A stretch of 64,000 nucleotides of DNA from Aquisalimonas sp. 2447. GTDB lineage: Bacteria; Pseudomonadota; Gammaproteobacteria; Nitrococcales; Aquisalimonadaceae. The notes under the pieces are model-generated. The model saw nothing but the letters and a program-made list of their open reading frames with translations, made no database searches and was not told the origin of the DNA. Below are positions 26,234 through 63,341 of the stretch, in pieces (the first letter of the stretch is position 1; each line of letters starts with the position of its first letter). The DNA lies in assembly GCF_012044895.1 (NCBI RefSeq), contig NZ_CP050695.1, positions 1,456,501-1,520,500 on the forward strand. Reading direction: 5' to 3'. The translations under genes were made by a program, and so were the position numbers.

Positions 26234-26650
26234 ATGACACACGCTAGTCAAGCGATGCCGGCCGCGTTGCCCGGGGCCCCGAACGAGGCGGATATGGCCG
26301 ATCTGATCGAAGACATGCGCGCGGAGCGGGACCGGATCATCCGGTTGCTCGACCTGCAGCTGGCCTCCCGCCCCGGGGCGTCGGAATGGCGGGACGGGCT
26401 GCATGAGCTCGAGCGTATCGTCGAGCTGCAGCTTGCCCGAGAGGATGATCTCCTGCTGGCCGAGCGGTGCGGGCGCGTCGACCAGCGGCCGGCCGCTGAT
26501 CCCTGCGTCCGGGTGGCCCGGCTCCGCGGCACCCTGCCCACGCTATTCAACGAGGCGCGGGCCGCGCATCCGGACACGGCGTTCATGGGGTACCTGCGTC
26601 TTTCGGCAACGCTGCGCCGGTGGGCCGGATGCCTGGAACGCGGGATTTAG
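26234..26650 (+). CDS. Hypothetical helical protein downstream of selO
   Basis: 138 residues, all-helical and charged, with two similar-looking helical halves (MRAERDRIIRLLDLQL; ERIVELQLAREDDLLLAERC). No family is recognised with confidence. GAGG lies nine bases before the ATG at 26234, and the gene starts 36 bases after selO, so it is probably co-transcribed. The stop codon TAG is part of the 4-bp target site of the IS5 insertion, so the protein is left intact. Confidence 0.6.
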   Translation: MTHASQAMPAALPGAPNEADMADLIEDMRAERDRIIRLLDLQLASRPGASEWRDGLHELERIVELQLAREDDLLLAERCGRVDQRPAADPCVRVARLRGTLPTLFNEARAAHPDTAFMGYLRLSATLRRWAGCLERGI

Positions 26651-27852
26651 GGAAGCGCTGATCTAATGCCTTCTCAGCGCCCAAAACTGGTTGCCGAAGA
26701 CGGATATCGGCCGGAACCGAGGCCATTTCGGCCTGATTTCACCTATCGAGGCGGTCTTCCCGCCTCGATTTCCGCCCTCAGGACGGAGTCCTCCCTTGGA
26801 GCGCCGGCATTCGTCGCTGCGCGAGCACCAGATTCGCAAGACCGAACAGCGCAAAGAGCTGCGCTTCGTTCTTGGCAATGCCGCGATAGCGCACCTTGCG
26901 ATGCCCGAAGAGGTTCTTGACCACATGGAAAGCATGCTCGCCACGCGCCCGTACTTTCGCCTTGGCCTGCTCAGTGGCGTCCCGCAGCCGGTCGAGACTG
27001 CTGGTGGTGAGTGCTCGGCGCTGACCGCGCTTCATGGCAATGTGCCAGTCAACCTCAGTGCCCACGGTCTCGGCGCGCTTGTCCGCGCCCTGGTAGCCCG
27101 AGTCGCCGAAGACATCGGCTTCATCACCGTGGAGCAGGTGATGCGTCTGGGTGACGTCGGCCACGTTGGCCGCCGTGCTCTTCAACGAGTGAACGAGACC
27201 AGTGTGGGCATCGCTGCCCACATGCGCCTTCATGCCAAAGTAGTACTGGTTGCCCTTCTTGGTCTGGTGCATCTCCGGATCCCGGGCGCTGTCCCGGTTC
27301 TTCGTCGATGGCGGCGCGGCAATCAGCGTGGCATCAACAATGGTGCCCTCGCGCAGCATCAGGCCCTGTTCGGCAAGGTGCGCGTTGATGGCTTCGAAGA
27401 TGGTGCGGGTGAGCCCGTGGCGCTCCAACAGACGCCGGAACTTGAGCAGCGTGGTCGCATCCGGGGCGTCCTCTCGGGCCAGGTCGATACCAACAAACTG
27501 CCGGATCGCCTGGCTGTCGTAGATGGCGTCCTCGATGCCTTCGTCCGAGAGCCCGAAGCACTGCTGCGCGATGTACATCCGCAGCATCCGCTCCAGGCCA
27601 ATCGGCGGTCGACCGCGCTTGCCGCCCTTCGGGTAGAAGGCTTCGAGCTCGGCAACCAGCGCCGCCCACGGTACGACGGCGTCGATGCCGTTGAGGAATC
27701 GCTCCCGGCGGGTGACCTTCTTCTTCCCGGCGTACTCAAGATCAGAGAAGCTTCGCTGCATCGGTCTCGGACTCGCTGCTGTGCACCAGGGCTTAGTATC
27801 TCAACTCAGGCCTGCACGCGGAACGGCAGCAGGCGAATAAATCAGCGTTTCC
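26651..27852. mobile_element. IS5-family insertion sequence, complete
   Basis: A 1202-bp element. Left end GGAAGCGCTGATCTA and right end (complement) GGAAACGCTGATTTA match at 13 of 15 positions. Both flanks carry the 4-bp target duplication TTAG (26647-26650 and 27853-27856). It encodes one transposase on the minus strand. Intact ends and matching duplications indicate recent insertion. Confidence 0.88.
26778..27761 (-). CDS. IS5-family DDE transposase
   Basis: 327 residues, full length for the IS5 subgroup. The N-terminal DUF772-like region includes AIRQFVGIDLA and PDATTLLKFRRLLE. DDE residues are seen in IVDATLIAAP and VFGDSGYQGADKR, with the glutamate in the last third. No frameshift is evident, so the element may be active. 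Confidence 0.93.
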   Translation of the reverse strand: MQRSFSDLEYAGKKKVTRRERFLNGIDAVVPWAALVAELEAFYPKGGKRGRPPIGLERMLRMYIAQQCFGLSDEGIEDAIYDSQAIRQFVGIDLAREDAPDATTLLKFRRLLERHGLTRTIFEAINAHLAEQGLMLREGTIVDATLIAAPPSTKNRDSARDPEMHQTKKGNQYYFGMKAHVGSDAHTGLVHSLKSTAANVADVTQTHHLLHGDEADVFGDSGYQGADKRAETVGTEVDWHIAMKRGQRRALTTSSLDRLRDATEQAKAKVRARGEHAFHVVKNLFGHRKVRYRGIAKNEAQLFALFGLANLVLAQRRMPALQGRTPS

Positions 27853-27859
27853 TTAGGTT

Positions 27860-35833: not shown

Positions 35834-35866
35834 AAAAAAGGGCCTACGGGAATCCCGTAAGCCCTT
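35834..35866 (-). terminator. Intrinsic terminator of the tRNA-Val locus
   Basis: On the minus strand a GC-rich hairpin (AAGGGCTTACGGG, loop ATT, CCCGTAGGCCCTT) is followed by a run of T. It starts nine bases after the CCA end of the tRNA fragment, so it is the native tRNA terminator. Confidence 0.85.
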
Positions 35867-35874
35867 GATTTTTC

Positions 35875-35919
35875 TGGTAGGCGCGAGTGGACTCGAACCA
35901 CCGACCCCCACCATGTCAA
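35875..35919 (-). tRNA. tRNA-Val(GAC) 3' fragment, truncated at the anticodon loop (att site)
   Basis: On the minus strand the segment begins TTGACATGGTGG (anticodon loop with GAC and 3' stem), continues through the variable and T arms (GGTTCGAGTCC) and ends CGCCTACCA. The 5' half of the tRNA is absent: sequence beyond 35919 does not pair with the anticodon stem. This 45-base remnant with its terminator is what remains when an integrase crosses over in the anticodon loop. It marks the left border of an integrated element that extends rightwards. Confidence 0.85.
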
Positions 35920-36149
35920 CGCATGTCTGGCCGTTGAACACTGTCACCCACACCGTGAGTAACTCTTTTCAATCAAGGGCTTTTCAGCGCCGGAATATTC
36001 GACATGCAGTCGCGTGATTCGGCGTGATGCAGGGCCAGTGTCCCGATATTCGCTGCTCCTCGCAAGGCCCTGACAATACGCGCCCCACGACATTGGTTGT
36101 TGCCGGGCCGTGCGGCATGCTTCGTGGAAATTCAGAGGAGTGGAACGCG

Positions 36150-36407
36150 ATGCACAAGCTACTTACACCAAGAGAGGTGGCCGACGAACTGCGGGTCAGC
36201 GAGCGCATGGTGCGCAGCATGATGTCGCGCCGAGAACTTGCCCACGTATGGATTGGCGGCAAGAGACATGTGCTCCGGGAAGACCTTGATGCCTATATCG
36301 AGAGTCAGCGCGTGGGGGTGATAGAGCGCGCGGGAAACGCGGACACCGAATTCGCTCCGAGCGCGAAAGAACGGCTTCGCGCGAGGCTTCACGGCGCGAA
36401 TGAATAA
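36150..36407 (+). CDS. Excisionase-family (HTH_17) DNA-binding protein
   Basis: 85 residues. A MerR-like winged helix-turn-helix of the excisionase family: LLTPREVADELRVSERMVRSMMSRRELAHVWIGGKRHVL, then DLDAYIES. AGGAG lies ten bases before the ATG at 36150. It is 230 bases from the truncated tRNA, the usual place for a recombination directionality factor. No integrase gene is found in the window, so the element may have lost it or carry it at the far end. Confidence 0.85.
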   Translation: MHKLLTPREVADELRVSERMVRSMMSRRELAHVWIGGKRHVLREDLDAYIESQRVGVIERAGNADTEFAPSAKERLRARLHGANE

Positions 36408-37038
36408 CCGGGGATTCCTCTTCACGACGCACTGGCTATCGTCTTGTGGCCTATGGTTTGAGGCGGAACGGATCCGGTTCCCACACTCGCTGCGCGCAAC
36501 GGTGGCAGACTGGGACGGCAATTGGCCAACTCTGAGGTCTGTCCCACCCCTGACTACCAGCAGATTTCCAGACCGAAGGGCTATTCATCCTTTCGGTCCA
36601 CGACTATGAATGGAGAGTCCCGCAAAGGACCCTGATCGGTCATTGCCCCGGTAACGATCAGGGCCCGCTCTTGGCCGCAGATTGCAATCGAGGCTCGCCA
36701 CCCAGCCGTGAGGACGCGGCATACGAGCGGCTGCCGCCGAGGGAGAAGCCGAGGAGTTCAGCCTCTGTCTGGTCCATCTCTAGCACGACGGGCTTGCGCT
36801 CTGGGTCTTACTGGACCATCGTTCAAGGACACCCCAAAAGAACCAAGGGGGTGCAAGAGGTGAGAATCTTGGTGGTCGTCTCATGATGGGTGCTGTTGGA
36901 GATGCGGGTGGCAGGTGAAGCAGGTGCGTGCCATCACCGATATCTACCACGTTGAAGTGGAAATGTGATGTGTAGCCGTTTTGTCAGGGTCTGAGCGTGG
37001 CGCGTTAAGACCGAAAAACAAATAACAAGAGGCAAGCC
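36408..37038. other. Intergenic region, no supported gene; one hairpin
   Basis: No reading frame here has family features or a ribosome site. A perfect inverted repeat, CCCTGATCG (36630-36638) and CGATCAGGG (36655-36663), could form a hairpin without a T-run. The stretch may be decayed mobile DNA. Confidence 0.5.
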
Positions 37039-37578
37039 ATGCGTTCTACTTTCCTCGGAATTCTGCTGCTTATATTTTCAATGCCGGCGACCACTGACAA
37101 CCTTGGTCGTCATGCCGGGGGGTACTTTGGGGGTGGTGGGCTTATATGGTCGTACGTTGACGAATCTGTTGAAGGAAGTGCGGAAGGTTTAGGCGGCCAA
37201 CTTCGTGGCGGATACCGCTTTAACCCCTTCTTCGGCTTTGAAACTCGGTTTAGCGCGGGAGGTTCCGGAACACTTGAAGGGATAGAGGTTCAGCTAAACC
37301 GGGCCCTACAGTTCCTGGCAACGTTGTCAATCCCCGCATCCGAGCGTCTTCGTTTCGGCGGATACGCTGGGCTTTCGGCGGGCGAACTAGAATTTAGCTC
37401 CTCTGGCTTCACTGGCAGAGAGGCAGACACAGGTGTGTCTTTCGGCTCATTTTTCGAATACGGCGACCCAGATGGCTGGGCGTTCTACGGAGATCTTGGG
37501 ATACTACAATGGGGCAGCGTTCAAGGGACAGGATACATGGTTGCTGGCCTATCTGTTGGAGCTCTATACCGCTTTTAA
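37039..37578 (+). CDS. Outer-membrane beta-barrel protein
   Basis: 179 residues. A signal peptide (residues 1-~19, FLGILLLIFS) is followed by alternating aromatic/glycine strands (GGYFGGGGLIWSY, GGQLRGGYRFNPFFGFETRF) and a C-terminal strand ending in ALYRF, with the terminal phenylalanine recognised by the BAM machinery. It resembles OmpA/porin-like small barrels. An AGAGG sequence precedes the ATG. Base composition is less GC-rich than the core genes, consistent with acquisition. Confidence 0.75.
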   Translation: MRSTFLGILLLIFSMPATTDNLGRHAGGYFGGGGLIWSYVDESVEGSAEGLGGQLRGGYRFNPFFGFETRFSAGGSGTLEGIEVQLNRALQFLATLSIPASERLRFGGYAGLSAGELEFSSSGFTGREADTGVSFGSFFEYGDPDGWAFYGDLGILQWGSVQGTGYMVAGLSVGALYRF

Positions 37579-38089
37579 CTGTTCAAGAGTTAAGAGGATG
37601 GCGTCGGATCACAATCAACAAAAAATGGCAGAAAGTCATGGGCGCGATTATTGCCTTAACCATGAGCGTGGCTACCCTACCTCGCGGACATATCGCGCTG
37701 CTGATATCGGGTTTTATGCGTGGGCGGCTGACGAGAGACCCATGCTCGATGCGCCCGAAGACTAGGGTCGGTCCACGTCGTCTTGAACCCGTGAGTCAGC
37801 CACGCATTGCTCAGTCGCTACACACCTGACGCGAAAGTACGCCACCACCTCGCTATCGCCTGGCAGGCGGGGAGCTCTTAGTCTGGTATCGACTCCAACT
37901 GGAAGACGCTTGCCAAAGAGACCTTGCCCTCGTGGTGAGGCTGTATGTCAGGCGCAGGCGCAATTGGAGAGACGGAGTCTCATGGCGACAAGGGAAACGT
38001 GTGCTCGTAACGTAGCGCCTGATTGGCCCCAAATAATGGAGTCCGACACAAAATGTCGCAGCTCAAGGTAACCTCTGAGCGTCACAGTG
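37579..38089. other. Intergenic region, nothing recognised
   Basis: Short open frames are present but none has a credible start, family motif or codon pattern. No repeats or hairpins of note were seen. Confidence 0.5.
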
Positions 38090-38314
38090 ATGAGCCAGTA
38101 TACGATGATCGTCTCTCGTGGAAACGCCGAGGGACTCGACGCACTCATCCAACCTCTTACGGCTGAAAATTGCAGTATTTTGAAAGACCGTGAAGTGGCT
38201 AACGAACATAATCTCGACCCTAACACGTGTCTGGCATCCGCGGAGCAACAGCCCCCTGAGGCCGCGGGCATCATGGAGTTCATGATAGACAAGATCGAGG
38301 AGTTCGAGACATAA
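38090..38314 (+). CDS. Possible small protein upstream of the nuclease/PP2C cassette
   Basis: 74 residues starting MSQYTMIVSRGNAEGL, with an acidic helical C-terminus (IMEFMIDKIEEFET). AAGGTAAC upstream is a weak ribosome site. Not recognised. It is on the same strand as, and 77 bases before, the nuclease-like gene and could be its first partner or a chance frame. Confidence 0.4.
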   Translation: MSQYTMIVSRGNAEGLDALIQPLTAENCSILKDREVANEHNLDPNTCLASAEQQPPEAAGIMEFMIDKIEEFET

Positions 38315-38391
38315 CCGGCAACATACCCTACAGAGTAAGAGAACTCACGCGTCGCAGACGCCCACAATCCCCAACGATCGAGAGCGGAACA

Positions 38392-39234
38392 ATGACTAAA
38401 GAAGACAAAGCAAACCGAGCGCTGAAGTTACTGGAGGACTTCAACCGCAAGGAACGCTATCACCTGCTTCGCGATGCGGTGTCAGGCGAAGCCTTCCGGC
38501 TCACGTCCAAGTTTCGGAAGAGGCTCAACACCGCACTCAGCAATCATTTTACCGACGGGCAGCAAGCGATCCAGATCCCAGACCGTGACGACGTCTTTGT
38601 TGCAATGGACTACCACCTGGACTGGATCGCCGCGGCGCTCATCCTGACGGAAAAAGGCGATGATCAGAAAGTGGGCGAGTTGAAGACACCGCAATCCAAG
38701 GAACAAACCGAACCTTTTAGGCACCGCCTTTCCGAGCAACGCGAAAGCGAGGACAAACGGCGCACGGCTGTCATTACGGGCAATCAAGAGGATACGGACC
38801 TGCTGATCGCATTCGTGGAGCGCGAAACCGGCGTCTTGTGCCTGATTCTCGTCGAGGCAAAAGTGGAGTCGGGCTGGGACGGCGCCCAGATACGGAGCAA
38901 GGGCCGCCGACTGTGGGACATTTTCGGTAACGCGGGAGACGCCTTCGACTTTGTCCGGCCCCAACTTGTGCTTGCCGGCCCCGGGGCGCAGAATCAGGAG
39001 CCTCGGTTTCAGCAGCTTGAGGACTGCCCGGCCTTTTTCTTTCAACCGGCAACCATCAAGCCGGGTGACACCAAGGTCGATCAGAAGTGCCCATCGCGTC
39101 TCTGTCGAATGAACCTTGTCGCTCATCATGCGCTCTACCAGCCTTCCCGCGTAGGTAAGAAAGACAAAGAGGGGAAATGGTACGTGAAAAGGTCGTTCAC
39201 CCCAGAGACTGACCCGCCGAGCGACGGGGAATAG
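38392..39234 (+). CDS. PD-(D/E)XK nuclease-like protein of unknown family
   Basis: 280 residues. A central segment, EDTDLLIAFV then LCLILVEAKVESGWDGAQI (residues ~130-165), has the spacing of a PD-(D/E)XK core: an aspartate on one strand and ExK on the next. A helical N-terminus and a basic C-terminus flank it. GAGAGCGG precedes the ATG. It starts a three-gene run with a DUF2779 protein (10-base gap) and a PP2C phosphatase. It could be a nuclease effector, but the family was not identified. Confidence 0.6.
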   Translation: MTKEDKANRALKLLEDFNRKERYHLLRDAVSGEAFRLTSKFRKRLNTALSNHFTDGQQAIQIPDRDDVFVAMDYHLDWIAAALILTEKGDDQKVGELKTPQSKEQTEPFRHRLSEQRESEDKRRTAVITGNQEDTDLLIAFVERETGVLCLILVEAKVESGWDGAQIRSKGRRLWDIFGNAGDAFDFVRPQLVLAGPGAQNQEPRFQQLEDCPAFFFQPATIKPGDTKVDQKCPSRLCRMNLVAHHALYQPSRVGKKDKEGKWYVKRSFTPETDPPSDGE

Positions 39235-39243
39235 GCAGTCTCG

Positions 39244-40740
39244 ATGGTCCAGGTACGCAACTACCGACTGTCCAAGTCCCGTTTCATCGCCGGCCTGCAA
39301 TGCACGCTCCGGCTTTGGAACAGCATCCATCGCCCAAAGCTGGCGTCAAAGCCCGATGAGCGACAGCAAGCGATCTTTGATACCGGCCATGCGATCGGGG
39401 AATTGGCGAGAGAGCGTTATCCAGGCGGTGCGCTGATCGAAGCCGATCATCGCCAGACAGATACCGCACTCGTGCAGACTGACTCGCTCATGCGCAAGCA
39501 CGAGCTGCCGGCGCTGTTTGAACCAGCGATCCAGCACAACAACGTCCTCACCCGGGTGGATGTGCTCGCCAGAGCGGGAGAGCAGTGGGACCTCGTTGAG
39601 GTGAAGGCATCCACGCGGGCCAAAGAGGTCTTTCAATTCGACGTTGCCGTGCAGTACTGGATCCTCAAGGGCGCGGGCATTCCGGTGCGTACCGCCGGCC
39701 TGCTCCTGCTCAACCGCGACTACGTTTACCCGGGCGGTGCCTACGATCTGGGTGAGTTGTTCCAATTTGAGGACCTGACTGAGTTCTGCCAGAACGAATT
39801 CGACGCCGTGGAGAGATGGATCGACCATTTCCACCACATCGCAAGCAGCTCCACTGCCCCAGACGTAGACATTGGACCCCACTGCCACACGCCCTACACC
39901 TGTCCTTTTTGGGCCCACTGCAGCCAAGGCAAGCGAACACCCGATAACCCGATTGATCTTCTGCCTAATCTTCGAGACGGATTGCGGGAGGCGCTGCTCG
40001 AGCGAGGCGTCGAATCCATTGAGGCGATACCGGACGATGTTCGGTTGTCGGAGATCCAGGAGCGTGTTCGACAAGCCACCGTCGAGGGTAAGCCCTGGCT
40101 CAGCCCCAAACTCCTTGCGGCACTGGAGAACGTGGAGTGGCCGCTGCATTTCCTCGACTTCGAAGCGGCCATGGTTGCGCTCCCCATGTACACAGGCATG
40201 CGGCCGTTTGATGCATTGCCGTTTCAGTTCTCATGCCACACCCAGAGAGCACCAGGCGAGGCGCCAATCCATCAGGAATTCCTAGCCACTGCCCCATCAG
40301 CGGACCCTCGCCAAGAACTCGCCGAGCACCTCATCCAAACGCTTGGACAGAACGGCTCGATCGTCGTCTATTCGGGTTACGAGGGCCGAACCATTCGGGA
40401 ACTGGCAAAGGCTCTCTCCCAACTCGCGCCGACGCTACTCTCACTACAACCGCGAATCGTTGATCTGTTAGCGATACTGCGACGGCACTACTACCACCCA
40501 GGGTTCCGAGGCTCGTACTCCATTAAGCAGGTGCTGCCAACGCTGGTTCCGGAGATGTCCTACGCCGGGATGGCGATCGCAGATGGCGAGGCTGCGGGCC
40601 GGGGCTGGTTACAAATGCTCGCAAGCAAGGATCCGACCGAGCGTGATCGCCTGGAATCCTCGCTGCGCGCCTACTGCCAACAGGACAGCCTCGCCATGTT
40701 CCACCTGCGAGAAGCACTCTTGCGCGAAGCGACCGCATGA
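39244..40740 (+). CDS. DUF2779 protein: Cas4/RecB-like nuclease plus C-terminal DEDD-like domain
   Basis: 498 residues. N-terminal half: SKSRFIAGLQC with one cysteine, a RecB/Cas4-type core (LTRVDVLARAGEQWDLVEVKAST) and a cysteine cluster CHTPYTCPFWAHC, together the four-cysteine Fe-S layout of Cas4/AddB nucleases. C-terminal half: LHFLDFEAAMVALP, the DxE start of the DUF2779 exonuclease-like fold, and SYSIKQVLPTLVPEMSY. It overlaps the PP2C gene by four bases (ATGA). DNA- or RNA-processing activity is predicted from family; biological role is not known. Confidence 0.82.
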   Translation: MVQVRNYRLSKSRFIAGLQCTLRLWNSIHRPKLASKPDERQQAIFDTGHAIGELARERYPGGALIEADHRQTDTALVQTDSLMRKHELPALFEPAIQHNNVLTRVDVLARAGEQWDLVEVKASTRAKEVFQFDVAVQYWILKGAGIPVRTAGLLLLNRDYVYPGGAYDLGELFQFEDLTEFCQNEFDAVERWIDHFHHIASSSTAPDVDIGPHCHTPYTCPFWAHCSQGKRTPDNPIDLLPNLRDGLREALLERGVESIEAIPDDVRLSEIQERVRQATVEGKPWLSPKLLAALENVEWPLHFLDFEAAMVALPMYTGMRPFDALPFQFSCHTQRAPGEAPIHQEFLATAPSADPRQELAEHLIQTLGQNGSIVVYSGYEGRTIRELAKALSQLAPTLLSLQPRIVDLLAILRRHYYHPGFRGSYSIKQVLPTLVPEMSYAGMAIADGEAAGRGWLQMLASKDPTERDRLESSLRAYCQQDSLAMFHLREALLREATA

Positions 40741-41537
40741 CGATCCAACGACCCGTAAAACCGTTCCTGAACTGTTCTGTTGCCAGCACGGCCAATCGAT
40801 GCGCCGGCAATCGCTGCAACCAGGATGCCTACCTCATCCAGGACGCCGTCTTTCAGGGAGAACATGAGCAACAGTTCGTTTTGGAGAATCCAACCGATGC
40901 GTTGTTCGCGGTGAGTGACGGAGTTCGCACGGCACCCTGTGCCGCTCGAGCAAGCCACAAACTGCTGACCTTACTCGCAAGCATCCATCGACTAGAGCCC
41001 TCGAAACACCCCGGCCGCAAGCTCCGGGCACTGCATGAGCAATTCATTGACGGAATCAACGCGCAGAAGCGTTGCTACGGCATGTCAGCGACGCTGATCG
41101 CCGCCGAGGTCACGTGCGGCGTCATGACCCTCTACCATGTAGGTGACTCGCGGGGGTGGCTCATCCGTGATGGGGAAATCCAACGGCTCACTACGGATCA
41201 TACGATTCTTGCTCGAATGATAGAGGAGCATGAGATTCTGCCGGAGGAGGCCGAGGGTTTGGCCACCCTATACGATGGTCTTGATCGCTGCTTCGTTGCC
41301 GACTCCAGTGAGGAAAAGCCCCAGCACGACCTGACCACGCTGGAATTGAGGGACGGCGATGAGGTGGTCCTCACGTCGGATGGGGTCGAGGCGATACCAG
41401 ATAGCTGGATATCAGCCGGCACAAGTTGTCAGTCGAGCCGCCGGGCGCAGCAACTGATCACAAAGGCCATCGAGACAGGGAGTGACGACAACATCACAGT
41501 GATCGCGATTCAATACCGTGAGTCACCTGTTCCGTGA
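40737..41537 (+). CDS. PP2C-family serine/threonine phosphatase-like protein
   Basis: 266 residues with all PP2C motifs in order: NQDAYL, DALFAVSDGV (usually ADGMGG), MSATLIAAEV, YHVGDSRGWLI, LRDGDEVVLTSDGV and DDNITVIAI. Metal-binding aspartates appear intact. It is a soluble cytosolic phosphatase. Translational overlap with the DUF2779 gene and the absence of any kinase gene nearby suggest it regulates or is part of the nuclease cassette rather than a kinase/phosphatase pair. Confidence 0.85.
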   Translation: MTIQRPVKPFLNCSVASTANRCAGNRCNQDAYLIQDAVFQGEHEQQFVLENPTDALFAVSDGVRTAPCAARASHKLLTLLASIHRLEPSKHPGRKLRALHEQFIDGINAQKRCYGMSATLIAAEVTCGVMTLYHVGDSRGWLIRDGEIQRLTTDHTILARMIEEHEILPEEAEGLATLYDGLDRCFVADSSEEKPQHDLTTLELRDGDEVVLTSDGVEAIPDSWISAGTSCQSSRRAQQLITKAIETGSDDNITVIAIQYRESPVP

Positions 41538-41730
41538 CCCAATAAAACTTGGCAGTGGGTCGCCTTCTGAGAATACCGGCGGCAGCCGACAAGACCTGTC
41601 CGCGTAATCCGTGAAGCAGTTGCCAAAAGGCCGAATCCGGGGAGGCGTATTCACCGCCACTGATGTGCGCGAGGTAAGGCCCTGCCGAAGCGGACGCCCC
41701 TTTATCGCAGGCGAGGGTCCGCTCTGGGGC

Positions 41731-42045
41731 GCGTCGAGACGTTGAGTCCGCGGGCTCCCATCAAGAGGAGTCTATATGGGCGAACATGAGCGGGAACGTC
41801 CAGTGTGGGATATGGCAATGGATGTGTCCGAGGACTGGCAACGGACCCAAAGGTTCTTGAGCAATCCTCATTAAATACGTGAAATACGTGGCCAGCGCAT
41901 GTCTCGGGACGGACACGGCGGCTCCGATCATCGGTTTTGAAAGCTCAAGCGGAAGGGCTTATTCGTTTACGGAGCGCGCGGTTCCCTGCGCGGAGCGATG
42001 CAGTCGCCGTTGTGGCCGGGAGAAATTCCATCAGGATTCATGGCT
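41731..42045 (+). repeat. Diverged direct repeat, copy 1
   Basis: This 315-base segment matches copy 2 (55667-56433) in two blocks: 41731-~41948 aligns to 55667-~55876, and 41949-42045 aligns to 56337-56433. About 460 bases present in copy 2 are missing here at the junction. Many substitutions separate the copies, so duplication is old. The identity of the element is unknown. Confidence 0.75.
41776..41874 (+). pseudogene. Remnant of a small gene shared by both repeat copies
   Basis: Encodes 32 residues, MGEHERERPVWDMAMDVSEDW then QRTQRFLSNPH, with AGGAG before the ATG. The second copy at 55712 has the same start and, if one frameshift is repaired, a longer C-terminus. Here a TAA truncates it. 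Family not recognised. Confidence 0.45.
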
Positions 42046-42174
42046 GATATTATGCCAGCCCGAAGTACGGCGTCTCAGCCGGCAGTCCGTAAGCGCCAGC
42101 GAATCGGCACCTATTCCCTGGTCTGAGTACTGGTCACACTGGTTCCATCCCGTTGACCACTGGAGGAAATCGGT

Positions 42175-42477
42175 ATGACCAGCGCCGAGCTGCATCATTA
42201 CTGGCGACAGACGCTGGATGCGTGGACGGCCTCCGGGTTGTCCGGCGCGGCGTTCTGCAAGCAACACTCACTCACCTACCACCAGTTTGTCTACTGGCGG
42301 CGAAAGCTCCGTGGCCCGGGCGAGTCGCCTTCGCGGGCCGGCTTTGCCAGGGTGGCGCCGGTGGCACACGATGACGCCGCGGATGGGCTGACCGTCTCGT
42401 TGCCCGGCGGTGTGTCGATCACCGGCCTGCACGCGGGCAACATCGAGTTGCTGGGCGCGGTGCTGAGGCAGTTGTGA
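42175..42477 (+). CDS. tnpA: IS66 accessory protein TnpA
   Basis: 100-residue IS66 orf1 product with a small helix-turn-helix-like fold: WTASGLSGAAFCKQHSLTYHQFVYWRRKL is the family hallmark. It overlaps tnpB by four bases. It is required with TnpB and TnpC for IS66 transposition. Confidence 0.93.
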   Translation: MTSAELHHYWRQTLDAWTASGLSGAAFCKQHSLTYHQFVYWRRKLRGPGESPSRAGFARVAPVAHDDAADGLTVSLPGGVSITGLHAGNIELLGAVLRQL

Positions 42478-42845
42478 TGCGCAACCGGTCTCTGCGCCCG
42501 TCCCGGCAGTTGCCGGAGATTTACCTGTACCGGGCCCCGGTGGATTTCCGCAAACAGGCCCATGGTCTCGCGCTGATCGTCGAGCAGGAGCTCGGGCACA
42601 GCCCCTTCACCGGGGCGCTGTACGCCTTCACCAACCGCCAGCGCAACAAGATCAAGTGTCTGATGTGGGAAGACAACGGCTTCGTGCTCTACTACAAGGC
42701 CCTGGCCGAGGAGCGGTTCAAGTGGCCGGCCCCGGGCGATGAGTTGATGAGCCTGAGCGGGGAGCAGATCAACTGGCTGCTCGACGGCTACGACATCACG
42801 CTGCTGCGGGGGCACAAAAAGCTGCATTACGAGGCGCTTGGGTAG
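42474..42845 (+). CDS. tnpB: IS66 accessory protein TnpB
   Basis: 123-residue IS66 orf2 protein (not the IS200/IS605 RNA-guided TnpB). Signature: YLYRAPVDFRKQAHGLALIVEQELG, then FTNRQRNKIKCLMWEDNGFVLYYKALAEERFKWP. Start overlaps tnpA. Confidence 0.94.
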   Translation: MMRNRSLRPSRQLPEIYLYRAPVDFRKQAHGLALIVEQELGHSPFTGALYAFTNRQRNKIKCLMWEDNGFVLYYKALAEERFKWPAPGDELMSLSGEQINWLLDGYDITLLRGHKKLHYEALG

Positions 42846-42890
42846 GCGTTTTTGCGTGCGCCAGGGCGCTGTTTTTGGTATGATTTCGTA

Positions 42891-44501
42891 ATGAAATCAA
42901 CGCCCGATAACGCCCCTCCGGCTCCCGATCTCAGCGGCCTCTCCGCCGCTGAGATGATGGCCGTTATCGGTGACCTTCAGCAACAACTGGCCTCGAAAGA
43001 GCAGGCCATCCGGCAACGCGATACGCGCATTGATCTGCTCGAAGAACTGCTGCGCCTGAAGACCCTCCAGAAGTTCGCCGCCAGTAGCGAGAAGCATCAA
43101 AACCAGATCACGCTGTTCGACGAGGCGGAGGTGGAAGCCGAGATCGATGCCTTGCGCGAGGCACTCCCGGACGACGCTGAACCCGACCCGGATGAGACGC
43201 CGCGCACCTCGGGCAAGCGGCGTGAGCGGGGCTTCTCGGACACGCTGGCGCGCAGGCGCGTTGAGCTCACGCTCAGCGACGAGGAGAAAGCCGGTGCCAG
43301 CAAGACCTTCTTCACCAAGGTCAAGGAGGAGCTTGAGTTCATCCCCGCTCAGTTGAGCGTGCTGGAGTACTGGCAGGAGAAGGCCGTGTTCGAGCACGAC
43401 GACGGGGAGGAGTCCCTAGTGGCGGCGCCCCGGCCGGTCCACCCGCTGGGCAAATGCATTGCCACCACCGCGCTGCTCGCCTACATCATCACCTCGAAGT
43501 ACGCCGACGGTCTGCCGCTGTACCGACTGGAGAACATGCTGGCGCGGCTCGGGCATTCGGTCAGTCGCACCAGCATGGCGCACTGGATCATCCGCCTGGA
43601 TGCGGTGTTCAGCCCGCTGATCAACCTCATGCGCGAGGCGCAGAACACCAGCGACTACCTCCAGGCCGATGAGACCCGCATGCAGGTCCTCAAGGAGGAC
43701 GGCAAGGTCGCCCAGTCCGACAAATGGATCTGGGTGACCCGGGGTGGGCCACCTGGCCGGCCAACGGTGCTGTTCGCGTACGACCCCTCACGTGCGGGGA
43801 GCGTGCCCGTGCGCCTGCTCGATGACTTCAGCGGCATCCTGCAGGCCGATGGCTACTCCGGCTACGGCCAGGTGTGTCGGGACAACGCCATCACCCGGAT
43901 CGGGTGCTGGGATCATGCCCGTCGCAAGTTTGTCGAGGCCTCCAAGGCGGCGCCGCCCAAGAAGAAGGGCAAAGGCAAACGCCAGAGCGCCAAGGCGGAT
44001 GTGGCGCTGGGGGCGATCCAAGAGCTCTACGCCATTGAGCGCCGAATCAAGGATCTCGGCGATGATGAGCGCTATCGCATCCGCCAGGCCGAGAGCCTGC
44101 CCCGGCTCCAGGCGTTGAAAACCTGGCTGGAAGACAACGCCGGCAAGGTCGTGAAGGGCTCACTGACCCGCAAGGCGATGGACTACACCCTGAACCAGTG
44201 GGACACCCTGGTGGGCTACTGCGAGCGTGGGGATCTACAGATCAGTAACGCCCTGGCCGAGAACGCCATCCGCCCGTTCGCGCTCGGTCGCAAGGCATGG
44301 CTGTTCGCCGATACCACCCAGGGCGCACGCGCCAGCGCGAGCTGCTACTCACTAATCGAGACCGCCAAGGCCAATGGCCTGGACCCCTCGGCCTACATCC
44401 ACCATGTGCTCACGCACATCGGCGAGGCGGACACCGTCGAGAAGCTCGAAGCGCTACTGCCCTGGAATACGGGCCTGGAGCCGGCTCCGAAAAAGAGCTG
44501 A
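42891..44501 (+). CDS. tnpC: IS66 transposase TnpC
   Basis: 536 residues from ATG 42891 (MKSTPDNAPP). An N-terminal coiled coil with LLRLKTLQKFAASSEKH, then a DDE catalytic domain with YLQADETRMQVL, GILQADGYSGYGQV and the glutamate in ALAENAIRPFALGRKAWLF. Full length and uninterrupted. Confidence 0.94.
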   Translation: MKSTPDNAPPAPDLSGLSAAEMMAVIGDLQQQLASKEQAIRQRDTRIDLLEELLRLKTLQKFAASSEKHQNQITLFDEAEVEAEIDALREALPDDAEPDPDETPRTSGKRRERGFSDTLARRRVELTLSDEEKAGASKTFFTKVKEELEFIPAQLSVLEYWQEKAVFEHDDGEESLVAAPRPVHPLGKCIATTALLAYIITSKYADGLPLYRLENMLARLGHSVSRTSMAHWIIRLDAVFSPLINLMREAQNTSDYLQADETRMQVLKEDGKVAQSDKWIWVTRGGPPGRPTVLFAYDPSRAGSVPVRLLDDFSGILQADGYSGYGQVCRDNAITRIGCWDHARRKFVEASKAAPPKKKGKGKRQSAKADVALGAIQELYAIERRIKDLGDDERYRIRQAESLPRLQALKTWLEDNAGKVVKGSLTRKAMDYTLNQWDTLVGYCERGDLQISNALAENAIRPFALGRKAWLFADTTQGARASASCYSLIETAKANGLDPSAYIHHVLTHIGEADTVEKLEALLPWNTGLEPAPKKS

Positions 44502-44584
44502 CGACCGCCTGCGGGGCAAGTGGGTCGATTTACGGGCGCTTACGGCAGTCCCGGACAACGTCCCAGAATCACTCGGAGGCCATA

Positions 44585-45766
44585 TTGAGCAAGTCCCTCG
44601 CGAACCGGGTTCAGCGCGTCAAACCCTCACCCACCCTCGCCGTGACGGCCAGGGCCGCGGAAATGCGCGCGGCCGGTCACGACATCATCGGCCTGGGCGC
44701 CGGGGAGCCTGATTTCGACACGCCGGAGCATATCAAAGAGGCTGCCATCGAGGCGATTCGCGCCGGCAAGACCAAGTATACGCCCGTGGACGGTACGCCC
44801 GAGCTCAAACAGGCGATCCAGCAGAAATTCGCCAACCAGAACGGGCTGGACTACGAACTGAACCAGATCCTGGTCTCTGCCGGCGCCAAGCACAGCATCT
44901 ACAACGTGATGCAGGCGGTGCTGAACCCGGACGACGAGGTGGTGATCCCGATCCCTTACTGGGTGTCGTACCCGGACATGGCTCTGCTGGCGGACGCCGT
45001 TCCGGAAAGAATTCAGGCTACCAAGGAACAGCGTTTCAAGATTACACCGGAGCAACTGGCAGCCACACTCACTAGTAAGACCCGGCTGGTGATCCTGAAC
45101 AGCCCCTCCAACCCCACCGGCGTGGCCTACACCCGGGTGGAACTGGAGGCGCTGGGTAAAGTTCTCGAGGACTACCCGCGTGTACTCGTGCTCACGGACG
45201 ACATTTACGAGCACATCCTCTGGGCGGACGAGCCGTTCACCAACATCGTCAACGCCTGTCCGTCGCTGAAGGACCGCACCATCGTCATCAACGGCGTCTC
45301 CAAGGGCTACTCCATGACCGGTTGGCGCATCGGCTACGCAGCCGGTCCGGCGGACGTCATCGGCGCCATGAAGAAGATCCAGTCCCAGAGCACGTCGAAC
45401 CCCTGCTCCATCGCCCAGGCCGCCTCGGTGGCCGCGCTCACGGGCGACCAGGGCTGCATCGCGCCCATGCTCAAGGCGTTCAAGGAACGCCACGATTTCG
45501 TGGTCAAGGCCCTGAACGACATCAAGGGCATCGAGGCCATCGAGGGCGACGGCACCTTCTACACCTTCCCCAGTGTGCAGGGCGCCATCAAGAACCTTGG
45601 CGTGAGGAACGACATGGAGCTGGCCGAGCACCTGATCAATGAGGCCAACGTGGCGTTGGTTCCCGGCTCCGCCTTCGGCCTGGACGGCTATGCCCGCATC
45701 TCCTTCGCCACCAGCATGGAGAACCTGGAGAAGGCGATGGAGCGGCTGGCGAAAGCGCTGGGATAG
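44585..45766 (+). CDS. aspC: Pyridoxal-phosphate aspartate-type aminotransferase
   Basis: 393-residue class I aminotransferase. Substrate loop GLGAGEPDFDTPEHI, NSPSNPTG, and Schiff-base lysine motif NGVSKGYSMTGWRIGYAAGP around residue 240 are intact. It likely converts aspartate and 2-oxoglutarate to oxaloacetate and glutamate, possibly with other substrates. The start is TTG at 44585 with GGAGG a few bases upstream. A housekeeping gene is unusual among the accessory genes here; IS66 sits directly upstream and may have removed or replaced its promoter. Confidence 0.9.
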   Translation: MSKSLANRVQRVKPSPTLAVTARAAEMRAAGHDIIGLGAGEPDFDTPEHIKEAAIEAIRAGKTKYTPVDGTPELKQAIQQKFANQNGLDYELNQILVSAGAKHSIYNVMQAVLNPDDEVVIPIPYWVSYPDMALLADAVPERIQATKEQRFKITPEQLAATLTSKTRLVILNSPSNPTGVAYTRVELEALGKVLEDYPRVLVLTDDIYEHILWADEPFTNIVNACPSLKDRTIVINGVSKGYSMTGWRIGYAAGPADVIGAMKKIQSQSTSNPCSIAQAASVAALTGDQGCIAPMLKAFKERHDFVVKALNDIKGIEAIEGDGTFYTFPSVQGAIKNLGVRNDMELAEHLINEANVALVPGSAFGLDGYARISFATSMENLEKAMERLAKALG

Positions 45767-45784
45767 GGTGCAAATTCCGCCGTG

Positions 45785-45812
45785 CCTCAGAGACGTGGAC
45801 GTGTCTCTGAGG
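45785..45812 (+). terminator. Hairpin after the aminotransferase gene
   Basis: CCTCAGAGAC and GTCTCTGAGG form a perfect 10-bp stem with an eight-base loop, 19 bases after the aspC stop. No T-run follows, so it is a terminator-like hairpin at best. Confidence 0.5.
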
Positions 45813-45829
45813 CCACTAGTTAATGACCT

Positions 45830-45860
45830 GGTCATGGGCACGAACTGTGTACCCATGACC
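45830..45860. repeat. Inverted repeat between aspC and the mobilisation genes
   Basis: GGTCATGGG (45830-45838) and CCCATGACC (45852-45860) are perfect 9-bp arms separated by 13 bases. It could be an operator, a hairpin ending the convergent mob transcript, or part of a transfer origin. Confidence 0.4.
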
Positions 45861-45916
45861 GGTATTGTGGACTGAACGAAAGTTCCCGCCGGAGATCAGG
45901 GAAACCGCGCTCGGAT

Positions 45917-46321
45917 CTACTGGCCGTCAGGCTTATTCGCATCCTGCCACGCGTTAACCGGGTACAGCCGTGTGCCCCCGCATACCGACTCGATGAGCTG
46001 TCGCCGAGCCCGAGAGATTTCCCGAGGGTTAGTCGGCTCCAGAATCGTGTTCTGAACGGTTGTGTACCCATTGAGGTTGGTCACGGGAAGGTCGAAGAGC
46101 TGACGGTCTTCTTCGCGCACAAGGTCCCGGTTCAGACCACGCAGGATTTTCTTCTCCTCTGACTTATCCCTCTCCATTATCTGCTCCATGAACTTACCGA
46201 GCACGAGTCTTCGCCTGTGAGTAACGCGATCTCGTTCCTTGCGCATCTCCTGTGACTTCTGCTGTTGCCGCTGCTTGAGTTGTTGCAGGTCCTTCTCCAG
46301 GTTTTCCAGCTTCTTGCTCAT
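45917..46321 (-). CDS. Mobilisation accessory-type coiled-coil protein
   Basis: 134 residues, with a charged coiled coil over residues ~1-75 (LENLEKDLQQLKQRQQQKSQEMRKERDRV) followed by a short C-terminal domain. No family is recognised firmly. It is divergent from the MobA/MobL relaxase gene with 247 bases between, where MobC-like accessory proteins often sit. Assigned role is inference from position and composition. Confidence 0.55.
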   Translation of the reverse strand: MSKKLENLEKDLQQLKQRQQQKSQEMRKERDRVTHRRRLVLGKFMEQIMERDKSEEKKILRGLNRDLVREEDRQLFDLPVTNLNGYTTVQNTILEPTNPREISRARRQLIESVCGGTRLYPVNAWQDANKPDGQ

Positions 46322-46386
46322 GGTATTGACCTCTTCTTGTGTCTGAACTGGCTACCTATGAGATCGCATTGGCGCTCCGTTCCAAA

Positions 46387-46524
46387 TGCCTTTTGTGCAC
46401 TTCAGACGTTTTCCGCCATGGCATGGGAGGTTCGCGCCTTCTCTCCAAATGCACATCGCAAAAGGCACTGGTTATCGGTCCGTCTCGTGCCAGCTTGAAG
46501 GCAATTGGCGTTGCAGCGCACTTA
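46387..46524. other. Candidate transfer origin (oriT) in the mob intergenic region
   Basis: The intergenic region holds an inverted repeat, TGCCTTTTG (46387-46395) and CAAAAGGCA (46459-46467), and on the minus strand TAAGTGCGC (46516-46524), which matches the start of the RSF1010/R1162-type nic core. The neighbouring relaxase is of the matching MobA/MobL (MOBQ) type. The 9-base match is short, so this is only a candidate. Confidence 0.35.
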
Positions 46525-46568
46525 GGAGTGGGCCGCCAAAAGGGTTGCGCATCACTAGGGGTCTTCGC

Positions 46569-47627
46569 ATGGCGATCTATCATTTTCACGTTCGGCCGAT
46601 ACAGAGATCTTCGGGACAGTCGGCTGTTGCCGCTGCTGCCTACCGTTCGGGCTCACGATTCCAGTGTCCGTTGACTGGTCGCGGCAACGACTATCGCGGC
46701 AGAACCGACGTGGATCACACCGAACTGATTGGCTGGAAGCGGAGTAGAGAGGCGCTCTGGGTGACGGCGGAAACCTCGGAGCGTCGGAGAGACTCCACGA
46801 CCGCCCGGGAGTATGAAATCGCTCTCCCCGTAGAGCTTGATCGGAGAGGCTCGATTCGGCTGGCGCGACGGTTTGCGGACTGGCTTCGGATGCGCTACGA
46901 GGTGGCTGTCGATCTGTGCATCCACGCGCTTGAATCGGGGAATCCTCATGCTCATCTCATGACAACCACAAGAGCGTCGAACGGATGGGATCTCGGTGAC
47001 AAGGCGGCGCGAGAGTGGAGCGGCTCGAAGCGCAAGAGACACGGTCTGCCGAACCGTCGACGTGAGTTCCGGCAAGCTCGCATGGTCTGGGGTCAGATGG
47101 TGAACGCTGCGCTCGAAAAAGCGAAAGTTTCTGCCAGAGTCGATTATCGAAGCTACGCCGAGGTGTACGACGGTTTGGCCGTAGCGCCTATACCCACGAT
47201 CCATCTCGGTTCAGCCACGGTCAGGAAAGAGCAGGGTGGCGTACGCACGGAGCGGGGTGACCTCAACCGAATCATCGACGAGATCCGGAGGTTGGATGAG
47301 CAGATCAGGCTCGTTCGTGCCGAGATACGGGCGGAGGTGGCGAATGACGAAGAAGAGTGCATTGACACGGGAATTGTCCATGAAGATCTGGAGGCCGGCA
47401 GACCCGACACGTCCGACGATACCGTGACACCGGATCAGTACCTTTCACCGGACCCGGATAGAGGGTTTGATGAGGGTCTCGAAGACTGGGATGACGACCT
47501 GCAAGACGCCTTGGATGCACACGACCCTAGCGAGTACGAGGGTCCGGAGTCATACCACGAAAGCTGGGGTGAGAATCACGAGGATCTGGATCACCAAGAT
47601 GGTGATGACTGGCCAGATCCCGAGTGA
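46569..47627 (+). CDS. mobA: MobA/MobL-family relaxase (MOBQ type)
   Basis: 352 residues. Motif I: YHFHVRPIQRSSGQSAVAAAAYRSG; motif III with the metal-binding histidines: CIHALESGNPHAHLM. The catalytic tyrosine is probably Tyr in the N-terminal YHF or AAYRSG segment. The C-terminal ~100 residues are strongly acidic and repetitive (DPDRGFDEGLEDWDDDLQDA), and no primase domain follows. It nicks oriT to start conjugative mobilisation. No type IV secretion genes are present, so the element would need a helper. Confidence 0.88.
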   Translation: MAIYHFHVRPIQRSSGQSAVAAAAYRSGSRFQCPLTGRGNDYRGRTDVDHTELIGWKRSREALWVTAETSERRRDSTTAREYEIALPVELDRRGSIRLARRFADWLRMRYEVAVDLCIHALESGNPHAHLMTTTRASNGWDLGDKAAREWSGSKRKRHGLPNRRREFRQARMVWGQMVNAALEKAKVSARVDYRSYAEVYDGLAVAPIPTIHLGSATVRKEQGGVRTERGDLNRIIDEIRRLDEQIRLVRAEIRAEVANDEEECIDTGIVHEDLEAGRPDTSDDTVTPDQYLSPDPDRGFDEGLEDWDDDLQDALDAHDPSEYEGPESYHESWGENHEDLDHQDGDDWPDPE

Positions 47628-47778
47628 GGTGAAGCTGTCGGTGCAGGGGGTTCGGGATGGCCGTAACCAGTCTACGAACCTGGCCTGTTGGGAAATTCCA
47701 ATTGCGTGCGGCGTTGACTCCCCGGGAGGCCGGCACCGAGACTCAGATCCAACCGATCCACTGGAAAAGCTAATAGTG

Positions 47779-48378
47779 ATGGGCGTGTTGAAAATCGGCG
47801 AAAAGGACCGGGACGGTCGCCAGAAGCGCATTGAGCACACGGGCAACTACCTGCGGGCAAGCCGCACTGGTGGCGTGTCTCTGCGGGCTCACACGAAGGT
47901 CTCGGGTGTGAACGTCACCGGTAACACCAGCCATGGCGTGCGTGTGTCGACGCGGCTGGCAAAGAACACCCAGGTGGCCTTCCAGAACGGGCGCTTCATC
48001 CTCCGCGGACGGTACGGGTCCGATGCCGCCAAGCTGAACCTGTCAAAGTCGGGTGCGCCGGTATCCACCAAGACGCCGGTCGGGGCCTTCAATTGGGTCC
48101 GACCCGGACGCTCTTCGTTCAAGATGGCCGGCGTGCAAGTGCGCGGCCATAAGGCCGCCTACATGCAGGCAGCCTATCTCCTCTTTGCCATGGTGGCAGC
48201 ACTCATCAGTGTTGTGGTCCAAGCCGTCGGGCTTGTCTTTCGCGGAGTGGGGTGTGGCGTCCAGGCGATTGTGGCCCGGAGGGAGCAGGCCCGGCAGGAC
48301 CGGGAACGACTGAGGCTTACGGCCTCCGATGTAGCCGGGGAGGGCGAGAGCATCCTCCAGGCCCACGGCGTCTCGTAG
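47779..48378 (+). CDS. Hypothetical protein with DUF4236-like repeats and C-terminal membrane helix
   Basis: About 199 residues from ATG 47779 (a GTG at 47776 is also possible). Basic and beta-rich N-terminal part with KLNLSKSGAPVSTKTPVGAF, similar to the LNLSKSG pattern of DUF4236, then a hydrophobic helix (AAYLLFAMVAALISVVVQAVGLVF) and a charged tail. It lies directly after the relaxase gene. Function unknown. Confidence 0.6.
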   Translation: MGVLKIGEKDRDGRQKRIEHTGNYLRASRTGGVSLRAHTKVSGVNVTGNTSHGVRVSTRLAKNTQVAFQNGRFILRGRYGSDAAKLNLSKSGAPVSTKTPVGAFNWVRPGRSSFKMAGVQVRGHKAAYMQAAYLLFAMVAALISVVVQAVGLVFRGVGCGVQAIVARREQARQDRERLRLTASDVAGEGESILQAHGVS

Positions 48379-48445
48379 CCTTCCCCCATGCGTAGACACC
48401 ACGTTCCTGGAGCCTTCTGGCAGACTGTAGAGCCAGGAGGTAGTG

Positions 48446-48611
48446 ATGAGAAAGTCCCGATTCAGCGAGTCCGAGATCGTCGCCATCCTGAAGGAAGCCG
48501 ACGCCGGCATGGCGGTGAAAGACGTGTGCCGCAAGCACGGCATCAGCCAGGCGACCTACTACAACTGGAAATCACGCTACGGTGGCAATGAGGCCTCGGA
48601 TCTCAAGGGCA
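48446..48611 (+). mobile_element. IS3-family OrfA 5' fragment fused in frame to the downstream gene
   Basis: Encodes MRKSRFSESEIVAILKEADAGM then KDVCRKHGISQATYYNWKSRYGG, the N-terminal helix-turn-helix of IS3-family (IS407-like) OrfA. Similarity ends at SDLK, after which the sequence is that of the GHKL ATPase gene. GGAGG at 48436 is the OrfA ribosome site. No OrfB or right end is present, so it is a truncated IS. Confidence 0.8.
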
Positions 48612-51600
48612 TGTACGACGCGGTCGAAGAACATCCGAGGGGTGTTCGTGCTGAGACCGGCTCCGATACGGCACCGGCCGATGAACTGGAGAGGCATGTT
48701 CGTTCTTTACTCGAGCATGCCGTGGATGCCCACAAGCGCAACTTGAAGGTTTATCAAAGCCTTCGGAACCTAGACGAGGTCATAGGCACCGAATACGGTG
48801 ATCGGGTTCTCTATGAGTTGATTCAGAACGCGCACGACGCGCACCGTTCCGGTAACGACGGCCGGATTGCGATCGAGCTCGCCATCCGTTCGGAAAGCGA
48901 AGGCGTACTTTACGTCGCAAATGGTGGGAAAGGCTTCCGCTGGGAAGACGTGGAGGCGATCCGCAACCTGGCCACCAGCGCCAAGGAGGTCGGTGAAGGC
49001 ATCGGCAATAAGGGTCTCGGCTTCAGGAGCATCGAAGCGCTAACCGACGACGTGCACATTTACTCGCGCAACGGCGCCTCTCGGAGCGGCGGGTTCGACG
49101 GCTACTGCTTCCGCTTCGCAGAGGTCAGCGAGATAGAGGACATCCTTCACTCCACCGGCGTCGATGCACCAACGAGCGCTGCCGTCGCGAAAACTATTCC
49201 GCGGTATCTCGTCCCTCGCCCGCTGGAGGACCACCCTAACGAAATCGCCGCATATGCTCGACGCGGCTACATGACGGTTATCGCCGCCCCGCTGCGGACG
49301 CCGGAGGCGGTTACGTTGGCAAGCAGGCAGGTGGAAGCGCTCGCCCACTTGGATGCGCCGCTCCTGCTGTTCCTCGACCGCATCGCAGAGATCCGGATCG
49401 ATATCGAAAGACCGGACCATAGACCGTATCGACGACGTCTGTCCCGGCGCCAGACGGAGGTTGGCGATGTTCCTTCGCTTCCCAGTACAACAATGTACGA
49501 AGTCGATGTTGGCGAGGGCTGCCGCTTCCTGGTTGTCCGGCGGGAGGTAGATAGACAGCGGATTCTGGAGGCCGTTGGGAGAAGCATCTCGACCGCGCCT
49601 CAACTCCAGCGGTGGCTAAACTGGAAGGGCGCGCCGGTTGTATCTGTAGCAGTCGGTATGTCCACTACAACGGTTACGAAAGGCCGCCTCTACAACTTCC
49701 TGCCCATGGGTGAAGAAGCTGATTCCCCGTTTCTCGGCTACCTCGATGCCCCATTCTTTGCAGATATCGACCGACGCGACGCGGATCTGGAGCTCCCCCT
49801 AAACGAAACTCTGATGGAAGCGGCAGCAGAGACATGCGCCGCAGCGGCACTCTCAATCGTCGAGCGGGATATGGCCATCCCTGCGCGAGCCGTATTCGAC
49901 CTATTCGCTTGGAGTGGAGAACAGGCGGGAAAGCTCAATACTGCGCTAAATGAGGCGGGCAGTTCCCTGCAGGAGGCCACCGTCATTCCGGCCATTGTGG
50001 AAAGAGGGCAAAGGGCCTGGTCCTGCCTGTCCGAGATCAGAATCTGGCCGGAAGGCACGTTCTCCGTCCTCAAGGACAGAACAGTCGCCAAGTACGTCGG
50101 CGCGCAATTGGTCTCGGAAGATTTGGATAGCAAGCGAATCGAACGCCTGAAGGCGGTCGCGAGCCGCGGTGTCTATCGGTTGACGCCTTCAGAAGCTCAG
50201 CTGGCTGAATGGTCCGAAGCGTTCGCCCGATCTTTGCTCGAACGCAAAGCGGCGCCGCGCACTTGGTCACGTTTCTACGACGACCTTCCGCGCGTGTTCG
50301 AAACCGCGAACGCGCCGCTGGAAGCGCTGGACGGGAAAGCCATCCTCTATGACCGATCGGGTAAGTTGCGACGCGCCGGAGGTATCGATGATGAGAAACG
50401 GACCGGCGTTTTTGTTCGAGGTGACGTCTCGAAGGGTAAGCGAAAGAAAGCAGGCGTCCCCCTGCCGCCCGCGACGCTGGCACGTCGCTACCGGTTTCTC
50501 TACGAGCGGATCAGCCTTCGACGGGAGACGCTGGAGGCATTCACCGCAGCCAATCTAGTGCGCGAGTACGACCCGGTAGAAGCGCTGGCAGGCTTAAAGT
50601 CGGCCTTGGGGCGAGAGGCAAACGACAAGCGTCGCCAAGAGGCGCTTGCGTGGGCATTCCAAGTGTGGCGTGCGGGATCAGGGGTGCGGCTGGAGGAAGA
50701 GCTGCAGAAGGCAGGCCTTTATGTGCCAACGCTTTCGGGTTGGCACCCGGCGGGTGAGTGCGCTTTCTCGTCCTCATGGACGTCGGTCGGAAGAGTCCTT
50801 GAGAACTACCTGATCGAGGCCGCAGACGACTCGCCGGACTGCCGGCGAGTACGCGATCGGCTGTTGGTCGGACAGCAAAATTGGCCGGTTTCGGTGCAAG
50901 ATGCGAAGCGGCATTGGACCAGATTCCTGGAGCTTATCGGTGTTGTCGACGGATTTAGGCCGGTGCCCGCGCGGCTTGTATGTAAGGGCTCGCCTTCGAA
51001 CTTGTGGGATTACGTCCTGCAAAGCGGCAAAGCCGCTGAAGGTCTGGACAAGGACTGGTGCGCAGAGGTAGCGCACGTCTCTTTCAAATATCCGTATACC
51101 GAATACCGGATGAAAGGCGAGGCTTGGCGATTACCGGGGCAGATTGAACACGATGCCCTGCCGGAAGGCGCCCGAGAGTCCATGTGCATGCTCATCTTTG
51201 AGCACCTGAAAGCGCACGGGACTGAATACTTCCAGTTCGAGGTCGGCCGCTTCGAGCGCAACGAGCGCGACTGGGATCGACGGAAACTGCCGACGCCTTT
51301 GGCATCCTTCCTGCGTTCGAAGCCATGGATTGCCGCAGTCTCCCAGGAAGGGCTTTTTTTCAGGAGCCCCAAGGAATGTTGGGGCTCGCGGGTCCGCCGC
51401 CGCGGCCCACCGCGGTTCATCGACCGTGTGCCCGAAGCGCTAGTCGATCTGTCGGAGGGGGAAGGCCTTTCGGAGTTGGCCTTCGGTGACGCGTTGTGCC
51501 TGCGGGATTGGCACAGTCAGGCAACGGCCGTTGAGCGGCTGCGGGACTTGGCGGATGTCGCCGTGGGACTCTCCTCCAATGATCGCCCGACCTTCCGAAA

Positions 51601-53944: not shown

Positions 53945-53965
53945 GGAAATCCAGTCTCGATCCGC

Positions 53966-54310: not shown

Positions 54311-54362
54311 TGAATTACTCGCGCCTTAAGTGTAAGATCTAATACAGTTAAATTCATTTTCC

Positions 54363-55424: not shown

Positions 55425-55666
55425 AGGAGACTCCAGACTCGCATTCGAGTGCCTAACAATGAATGAAAGGCGCTCACGCTGATTCGATCATTGTGCTGGC
55501 GTCATAGCAGCGGATCCGTCCCGACATGGCTAGCAAGAGCATCCGACACATCAGTAGGTTACCGCGTACGGGAAAGTGAGCGCGAACCAATCATCTGACG
55601 GCGCCGCGTATTACGCTGCTCCTCAGCGGACAAGAGTCGATCCAGCAGAAACGTCAGCAACGGGTC

Positions 55667-56433: not shown

Positions 56434-56626
56434 GGTTATTCAGGACGGACTGTTTAGTCGCCACCCAATCGAGGGCCTCGGCGAGGGCCCCGGCAATCGG
56501 CAGCAACGCAAAAACACGCCGGCGCCGTTGTGTTGACACAACGCCGGGGATGCCTCGACTTTGACCCTTCTGGAAAATGCACTAACATTGCACGACACAC
56601 AACGGCCTCGCGCGGAAGGTGAGCCC

Positions 56627-60369: not shown

Positions 60370-60379
60370 GGGACGGACG

Positions 60380-63332: not shown

Positions 63333-63341
63333 GGGGAGCGC

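Follow-up and report, generated by a model that had tools for sequence, protein, structure and literature searches.

The half tRNA gene found in the analysed window, a 64,000-nucleotide stretch of the Aquisalimonas sp. 2447 chromosome (G000:C1:1456501-1520500; the genome, G000, is a single contig of 3.97 Mb), is, at a probability of about 95%, the 3' end of a valine tRNA gene, displaced when a 75.3-kb integrative island with its own integrase split that gene. The left 28 kb of this island occupy window positions 35920..64000, and the rest extends as far as window-equivalent position 111199 (G000:C1:1567699). It is bounded by att repeats at both ends, its GC content of 59.8% stands against 65-66% in the flanks, and the corresponding site is empty in G004, a genome of the same genus. 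As both ends have been mapped to the base and the target, integrase and empty site are in hand, excision and cargo of the island are directly testable.

No tRNA was called by ARAGORN in the 64-kb window. The first-pass annotation had described a 45-base 3' half of tRNA-Val(GAC) with its native terminator, and this description holds with its coordinates: positions 35875..35919 (minus strand), from the anticodon loop to CCA, are 100% identical to nucleotides 33-77 of the intact tRNA-Val(GAC) of the genome. The native intrinsic terminator lies at 35838..35866 (minus strand) and consists of a 13-bp stem and a T-run (-22.9 kcal/mol, z = -5.0). Together, the tRNA 3' half and the terminator region form the displaced att copy at 35834..35919 (minus strand), a direct repeat of G000:C1:1567614-1567699 over 86 bp at 95% identity. 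The identity to the tRNA takes in the whole 7-nt anticodon loop from its first base on (TTGACAT; 35913..35919, minus strand), and this loop is the presumed 7-bp crossover region and island border. The loss of stem pairing that had been noticed exactly at the anticodon loop is found at the 5' edge of the loop, where the match stops, with the expected 5' arm of the anticodon stem, CCACC, absent and ATGCG in its place.

Rightward extension beyond the window, proposed as a check in the first-pass annotation, leads to both a reconstituted tRNA-Val(GAC) gene at G000:C1:1567655-1567731 and an integrase gene at G000:C1:1566368-1567513, each on the minus strand. In a similarity search of the genome, this tRNA gene is the single full copy of tRNA-Val(GAC) and contains the only other occurrence of the 45-nt tRNA sequence of the left fragment; the lack of such a copy had been named as evidence against an integration border. 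An exact match of 45 nt is far beyond chance in a genome of 4 Mb. The intact gene is preceded by a promoter-like site (TTGACA-16-TAGAAT), and its terminator is as strong as that of the left copy. The att block is thus present in direct orientation at both ends, with the right copy 75,280 bp from the left one; the tRNA bases of the two are identical (45/45), and the terminator region differs at 4 of 41 bases.

The surroundings of the two copies tell them apart. The left copy runs on into genes for a YgjV-like protein, pyruvate carboxylase, a small membrane protein and photolyase, all of them ordinary chromosomal genes. The right copy runs on into repeats and the integrase gene; from its terminator onwards it matches the end beside tRNA-Val in G002 (98.5% over 133 nt), where the match continues into an IS66-type fragment. 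The right end of the island is common to G000 and G002, in the latter next to its tRNA-Val. Judged by these neighbouring sequences, the left fragment and its terminator are the displaced chromosomal originals. Between the right terminator and the integrase gene lie two GGGGACAGT repeats, 11 bp apart, and three GGGGACA repeats, likewise 11 bp apart, are found at the corresponding place in G002 and G006; these repeats may be arm sites of the integrase.

The integrase is a tyrosine recombinase of 381 aa (PF00589, E=2e-23) in which all six catalytic residues are present (R224, K249, H325, R328, H351 and Y360). Its score of 48.6 bits against the integron-integrase model is far under the cut-off of 265 bits. 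Its gene is the next one on the strand of the intact tRNA, inside the interval, and begins 142 bp beyond the tRNA, from which it reads away. It lies about 46 kb beyond the window end, in agreement with the earlier remark that the window holds no integrase, and none was found among the scanned island genes within the window. The closest relative, at 43% identity, is encoded in G006, a genome of the same family, where its gene starts 157 bp downstream of tRNA-Val(CAC), with the BrxL and PglZ genes of BREX behind it; a decayed 3' fragment of tRNA-Val(CAC), beginning two bases before the anticodon loop, is found on another contig of that genome. In named genomes, the genes of more distant relatives follow tRNA-Arg, -Pro and -Val genes at a distance of about 100-200 bp and are oriented like the tRNA. 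Searches of genome_contigs and viral_contigs returned no close integrase homologue with a single-sequence query and only distant ones with a two-sequence alignment, and in phage and plasmid records the best among the matches listed are only 27-30% identical.

An uninterrupted tRNA-Val locus in a relative, with which a comparison had been suggested, is provided by G004. Here the undivided tRNA-Val(GAC) lies between orthologues of the G000 flanking genes, namely SelO (80%) and its neighbour (55%) on the 5' side and the small membrane protein (68%) and photolyase (75%) on the 3' side, and represents the empty site. A relative with the same truncated tRNA and no inserted DNA was not found. The original reading of the split tRNA as an integration border is supported by the second att copy, the integrase, the GC step and the undivided tRNA in G004.

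That mobile DNA enters bacterial chromosomes by integration of islands into tRNA genes is well known, and the principle is long established. In the present case, the integrase would have recombined an attP carrying a copy of the tRNA 3' half and terminator with the chromosomal tRNA gene. The cuts would most likely have been staggered, one on each side of the 7-nt anticodon loop, at positions suggested by the point where identity ends and the stem is lost; the crossover could in principle lie anywhere within the 45-nt block of identity. The 5' half of the tRNA and its promoter would now be joined to the 3' half brought by the island, by which the tRNA gene remains whole, and the original 3' half and terminator would have been pushed to the far, left end of the island, in the window. 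Excision would reverse this process if the island is still mobile today, with the product of an HTH_17 gene at the left end as the best candidate for its directionality factor. The resulting circle would have attP between the integrase and HTH_17 genes, both of them pointing outwards from it.

The HTH_17 gene (36150..36407, plus strand; 85 aa; PF12728, E=5e-13) lies 230 bp inside, as reported in the first-pass annotation, with no other gene between it and the att border. Its excisionase-type character is supported by a score above the cut-off of the NCBI excisionase model (TIGR01764 'excise', 35.0 bits against 28.8) and by a match to phrog_66. A chance placement at the border is unlikely, as there are only 6 copies of the domain in 4 Mb. 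We consider it slightly better than an even bet that this protein acts as the directionality factor of excision, the estimate being held at this level because no homologue was found with which the conservation of its pairing with the integrase could be tested. The competing reading, to which we give somewhat less than even odds, is that the gene encodes a small regulator, or was left behind by another element, and lies near the border by chance, with excision depending on another factor or the island being immobile; the island itself would be unchanged by this. The domain is indeed common, with 5 of the 6 matches in G000 located elsewhere, and no close homologue other than the gene itself was found in 54 genomes of the order or 369 of the class. 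An HTH_17-type gene is also missing from the available 1.2 kb at the corresponding end of the G006 element, and the island is partly eroded, as its IS elements and a fused open reading frame show.

The island is best called a defence island, with a cargo that is largely anti-phage. The anti-phage genes include those for a TmtA-like protein and two type III methylase/restriction sets, and further recognised genes encode an SNF2 helicase, a RecB-like nuclease-helicase, several phosphoesterases, WYL regulators, a LAGLIDADG endonuclease-like protein and a protein with a weak CHAT match. Within the window, a DUF2779 protein and a PP2C-type phosphatase (39244..41537, plus strand; Pfam) are followed by three open reading frames (42175..44501, plus strand) which, from their layout and sequence, we take to be IS66-type transposase genes. 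Behind this element comes the second copy of an aspartate aminotransferase-like gene (44585..45766, plus strand), whose product shares 96% aa identity with that of the copy at G000:C1:1589812-1590987. As a core gene, it would have broken the reading as a single island, but this was ruled out by the copy outside the island; the two are 91% identical in DNA, and the outside copy (G000:C1:1589807-1591024) lies beside tRNA-Asn. A MobA/MobL-type relaxase gene (46710..47627, plus strand; 305 aa; PF03389, E=8e-34) matches positions 46-221 of the 224 of the domain, leaving the N-terminal part of the domain unmatched. The TmtA-like gene (48446..53944, plus strand; PADLOC TmtA, 1757 bits, residues 73-1832) is a full-length frame joined in frame to a preceding 70-residue N-terminus of an IS3-type transposase (PF01527 at 1-70), a fusion which perhaps arose by insertion of an IS at the start of TmtA. 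An RHH/ParE-type toxin-antitoxin pair is encoded at 56627..57189 (plus strand; PF01402, PF05016).

For some genes of the island no Pfam family was recognised. Two adjacent genes of 1431 and 812 aa (L006 11011-17741, G000:C1:1551011-1557741) match no Pfam, NCBIfam or PADLOC family and are candidates for unknown defence genes. At L006 2862-4952 and 8472-10559 lie genes for proteins of 695-696 aa without a Pfam family, part of whose DNA is 71% alike; one of them has only a weak TraD match, and smaller paralogous genes surround the pair.

If the interval were a composite, more than one element would have arrived in turn, for example the stretch with IS66, aminotransferase, relaxase and TmtA, and the outer att pair would mark only the most recent or the oldest. 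We regard this as unlikely. It would account for the related repeats (G000:C1:1498226-1498539 and 1512162-1512927) that flank a 14-kb stretch within the island, for the several IS-type genes and for a GC content varying between 55 and 66% in 5-kb steps, but a single integrase and a single att pair were recognised in the island, and the att block is present in two copies only in the self-comparison of the region. The two repeats, at window positions 41726-42039 and 55662-56427, are 86-88% identical and enclose the IS66, aminotransferase, relaxase and TmtA genes; one of them is also similar to sequence close to the aminotransferase copy outside the island.

The gene order around the island differs from that of G004 in a further respect. 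In G000, the 3'-side genes still follow the displaced tRNA fragment, while SelO and its neighbour are found further to the left, beside the photolyase side, and the pyruvate carboxylase and YgjV-like genes, which are absent there in G004, lie between the tRNA and the membrane-protein gene. A separate inversion is needed because the 5' flank of the tRNA in G000 is not that of G004. Two IS5-type copies, both outside the island, are its probable endpoints: one at window positions 26648..27857 (plus strand; G000:C1:1483148-1484357), at the end of the SelO neighbour, and the other at G000:C1:1567992-1569201, 260 bp upstream of the intact tRNA and encoding a DDE transposase. They are identical and inverted (1210 bp at 100%). 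Judging from this layout, an 84-kb inversion between them probably moved the 5' flank of the tRNA, with the far side of G004 unmatched. Such an inversion would flip the 84 kb that hold the tRNA, the island and the 3' genes, and undoing it would restore the order of G004. The target duplications of the IS5-type copies were considered as proof of the inversion and are not informative (TTAG/TTAG and CTAG/TTAG). That the two tRNA pieces arose by IS-mediated duplication or rearrangement, as the identical inverted IS copies and the altered gene order could suggest, is extremely improbable, since the break falls at the anticodon loop with no IS end there, the att copies are in direct orientation with the integrase between them beside the intact tRNA, and neither IS copy falls between the two att copies.

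Integration at the valine tRNA, by contrast, gives an arrangement like the site A class of the Islander catalogue, which contains 3,919 tRNA-targeted islands, 2,083 of them with anticodon-centred sites (PMC4383910). An intact tRNA and a matching end fragment are found on one replicon and in one orientation with the 3' fragment downstream, a tyrosine integrase of non-integron type lies inside the interval beside the intact tRNA, the length of 75,280 bp is within 2-200 kb, the crossover is assigned to the anticodon loop, and the island is absent at the G004 site. Nothing essential differs, except that the duplicated block here also takes in the tRNA terminator and that a later inversion probably moved the tRNA 5' flank. 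It is established that the tRNA anticodon stem-loop and the 7-bp overlap of tyrosine recombinases fit each other (PMC8371274). Anticodon-loop tRNA islands are a very common kind, and the present one is a well-mapped case. Like integrative and mobilizable elements, the island encodes an integrase, is bounded by att repeats and contains a gene for a putative relaxase of the MobA/MobL type, although this protein has only 305 aa and its gene adjoins IS genes.

The closest parallel in terms of the integrase is found in G006, where L047 2469-10838 (G006:C6) is a BREX island with BrxL and PglZ headed by this relative at tRNA-Val(CAC). It is similar to the G000 island in its integrase (43%), valine tRNA target, GGGGACA repeats between tRNA and integrase, and anti-phage cargo, and a metallophosphoesterase open reading frame at its far end resembles, by sequence, those in the G000 island. 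In contrast to G000, the tRNA has the anticodon CAC, the displaced fragment is decayed and on another contig, and the 1.2 kb at that end contain no HTH_17 gene. It is conceivable, with a rather small likelihood, that both represent a lineage of valine-tRNA-specific integrases whose anti-phage cargo is interchangeable (BREX in G006, type III restriction and TmtA in G000), with an excisionase gene opposite the integrase and the two meeting across attP only in the circle. Some alphaproteobacterial relatives of the integrase (L068, L071, L075 and L077, near 3730-3940) adjoin a tRNA on the opposite strand at its 5' rather than its 3' end; this points to use of the rarer 5'-half att.
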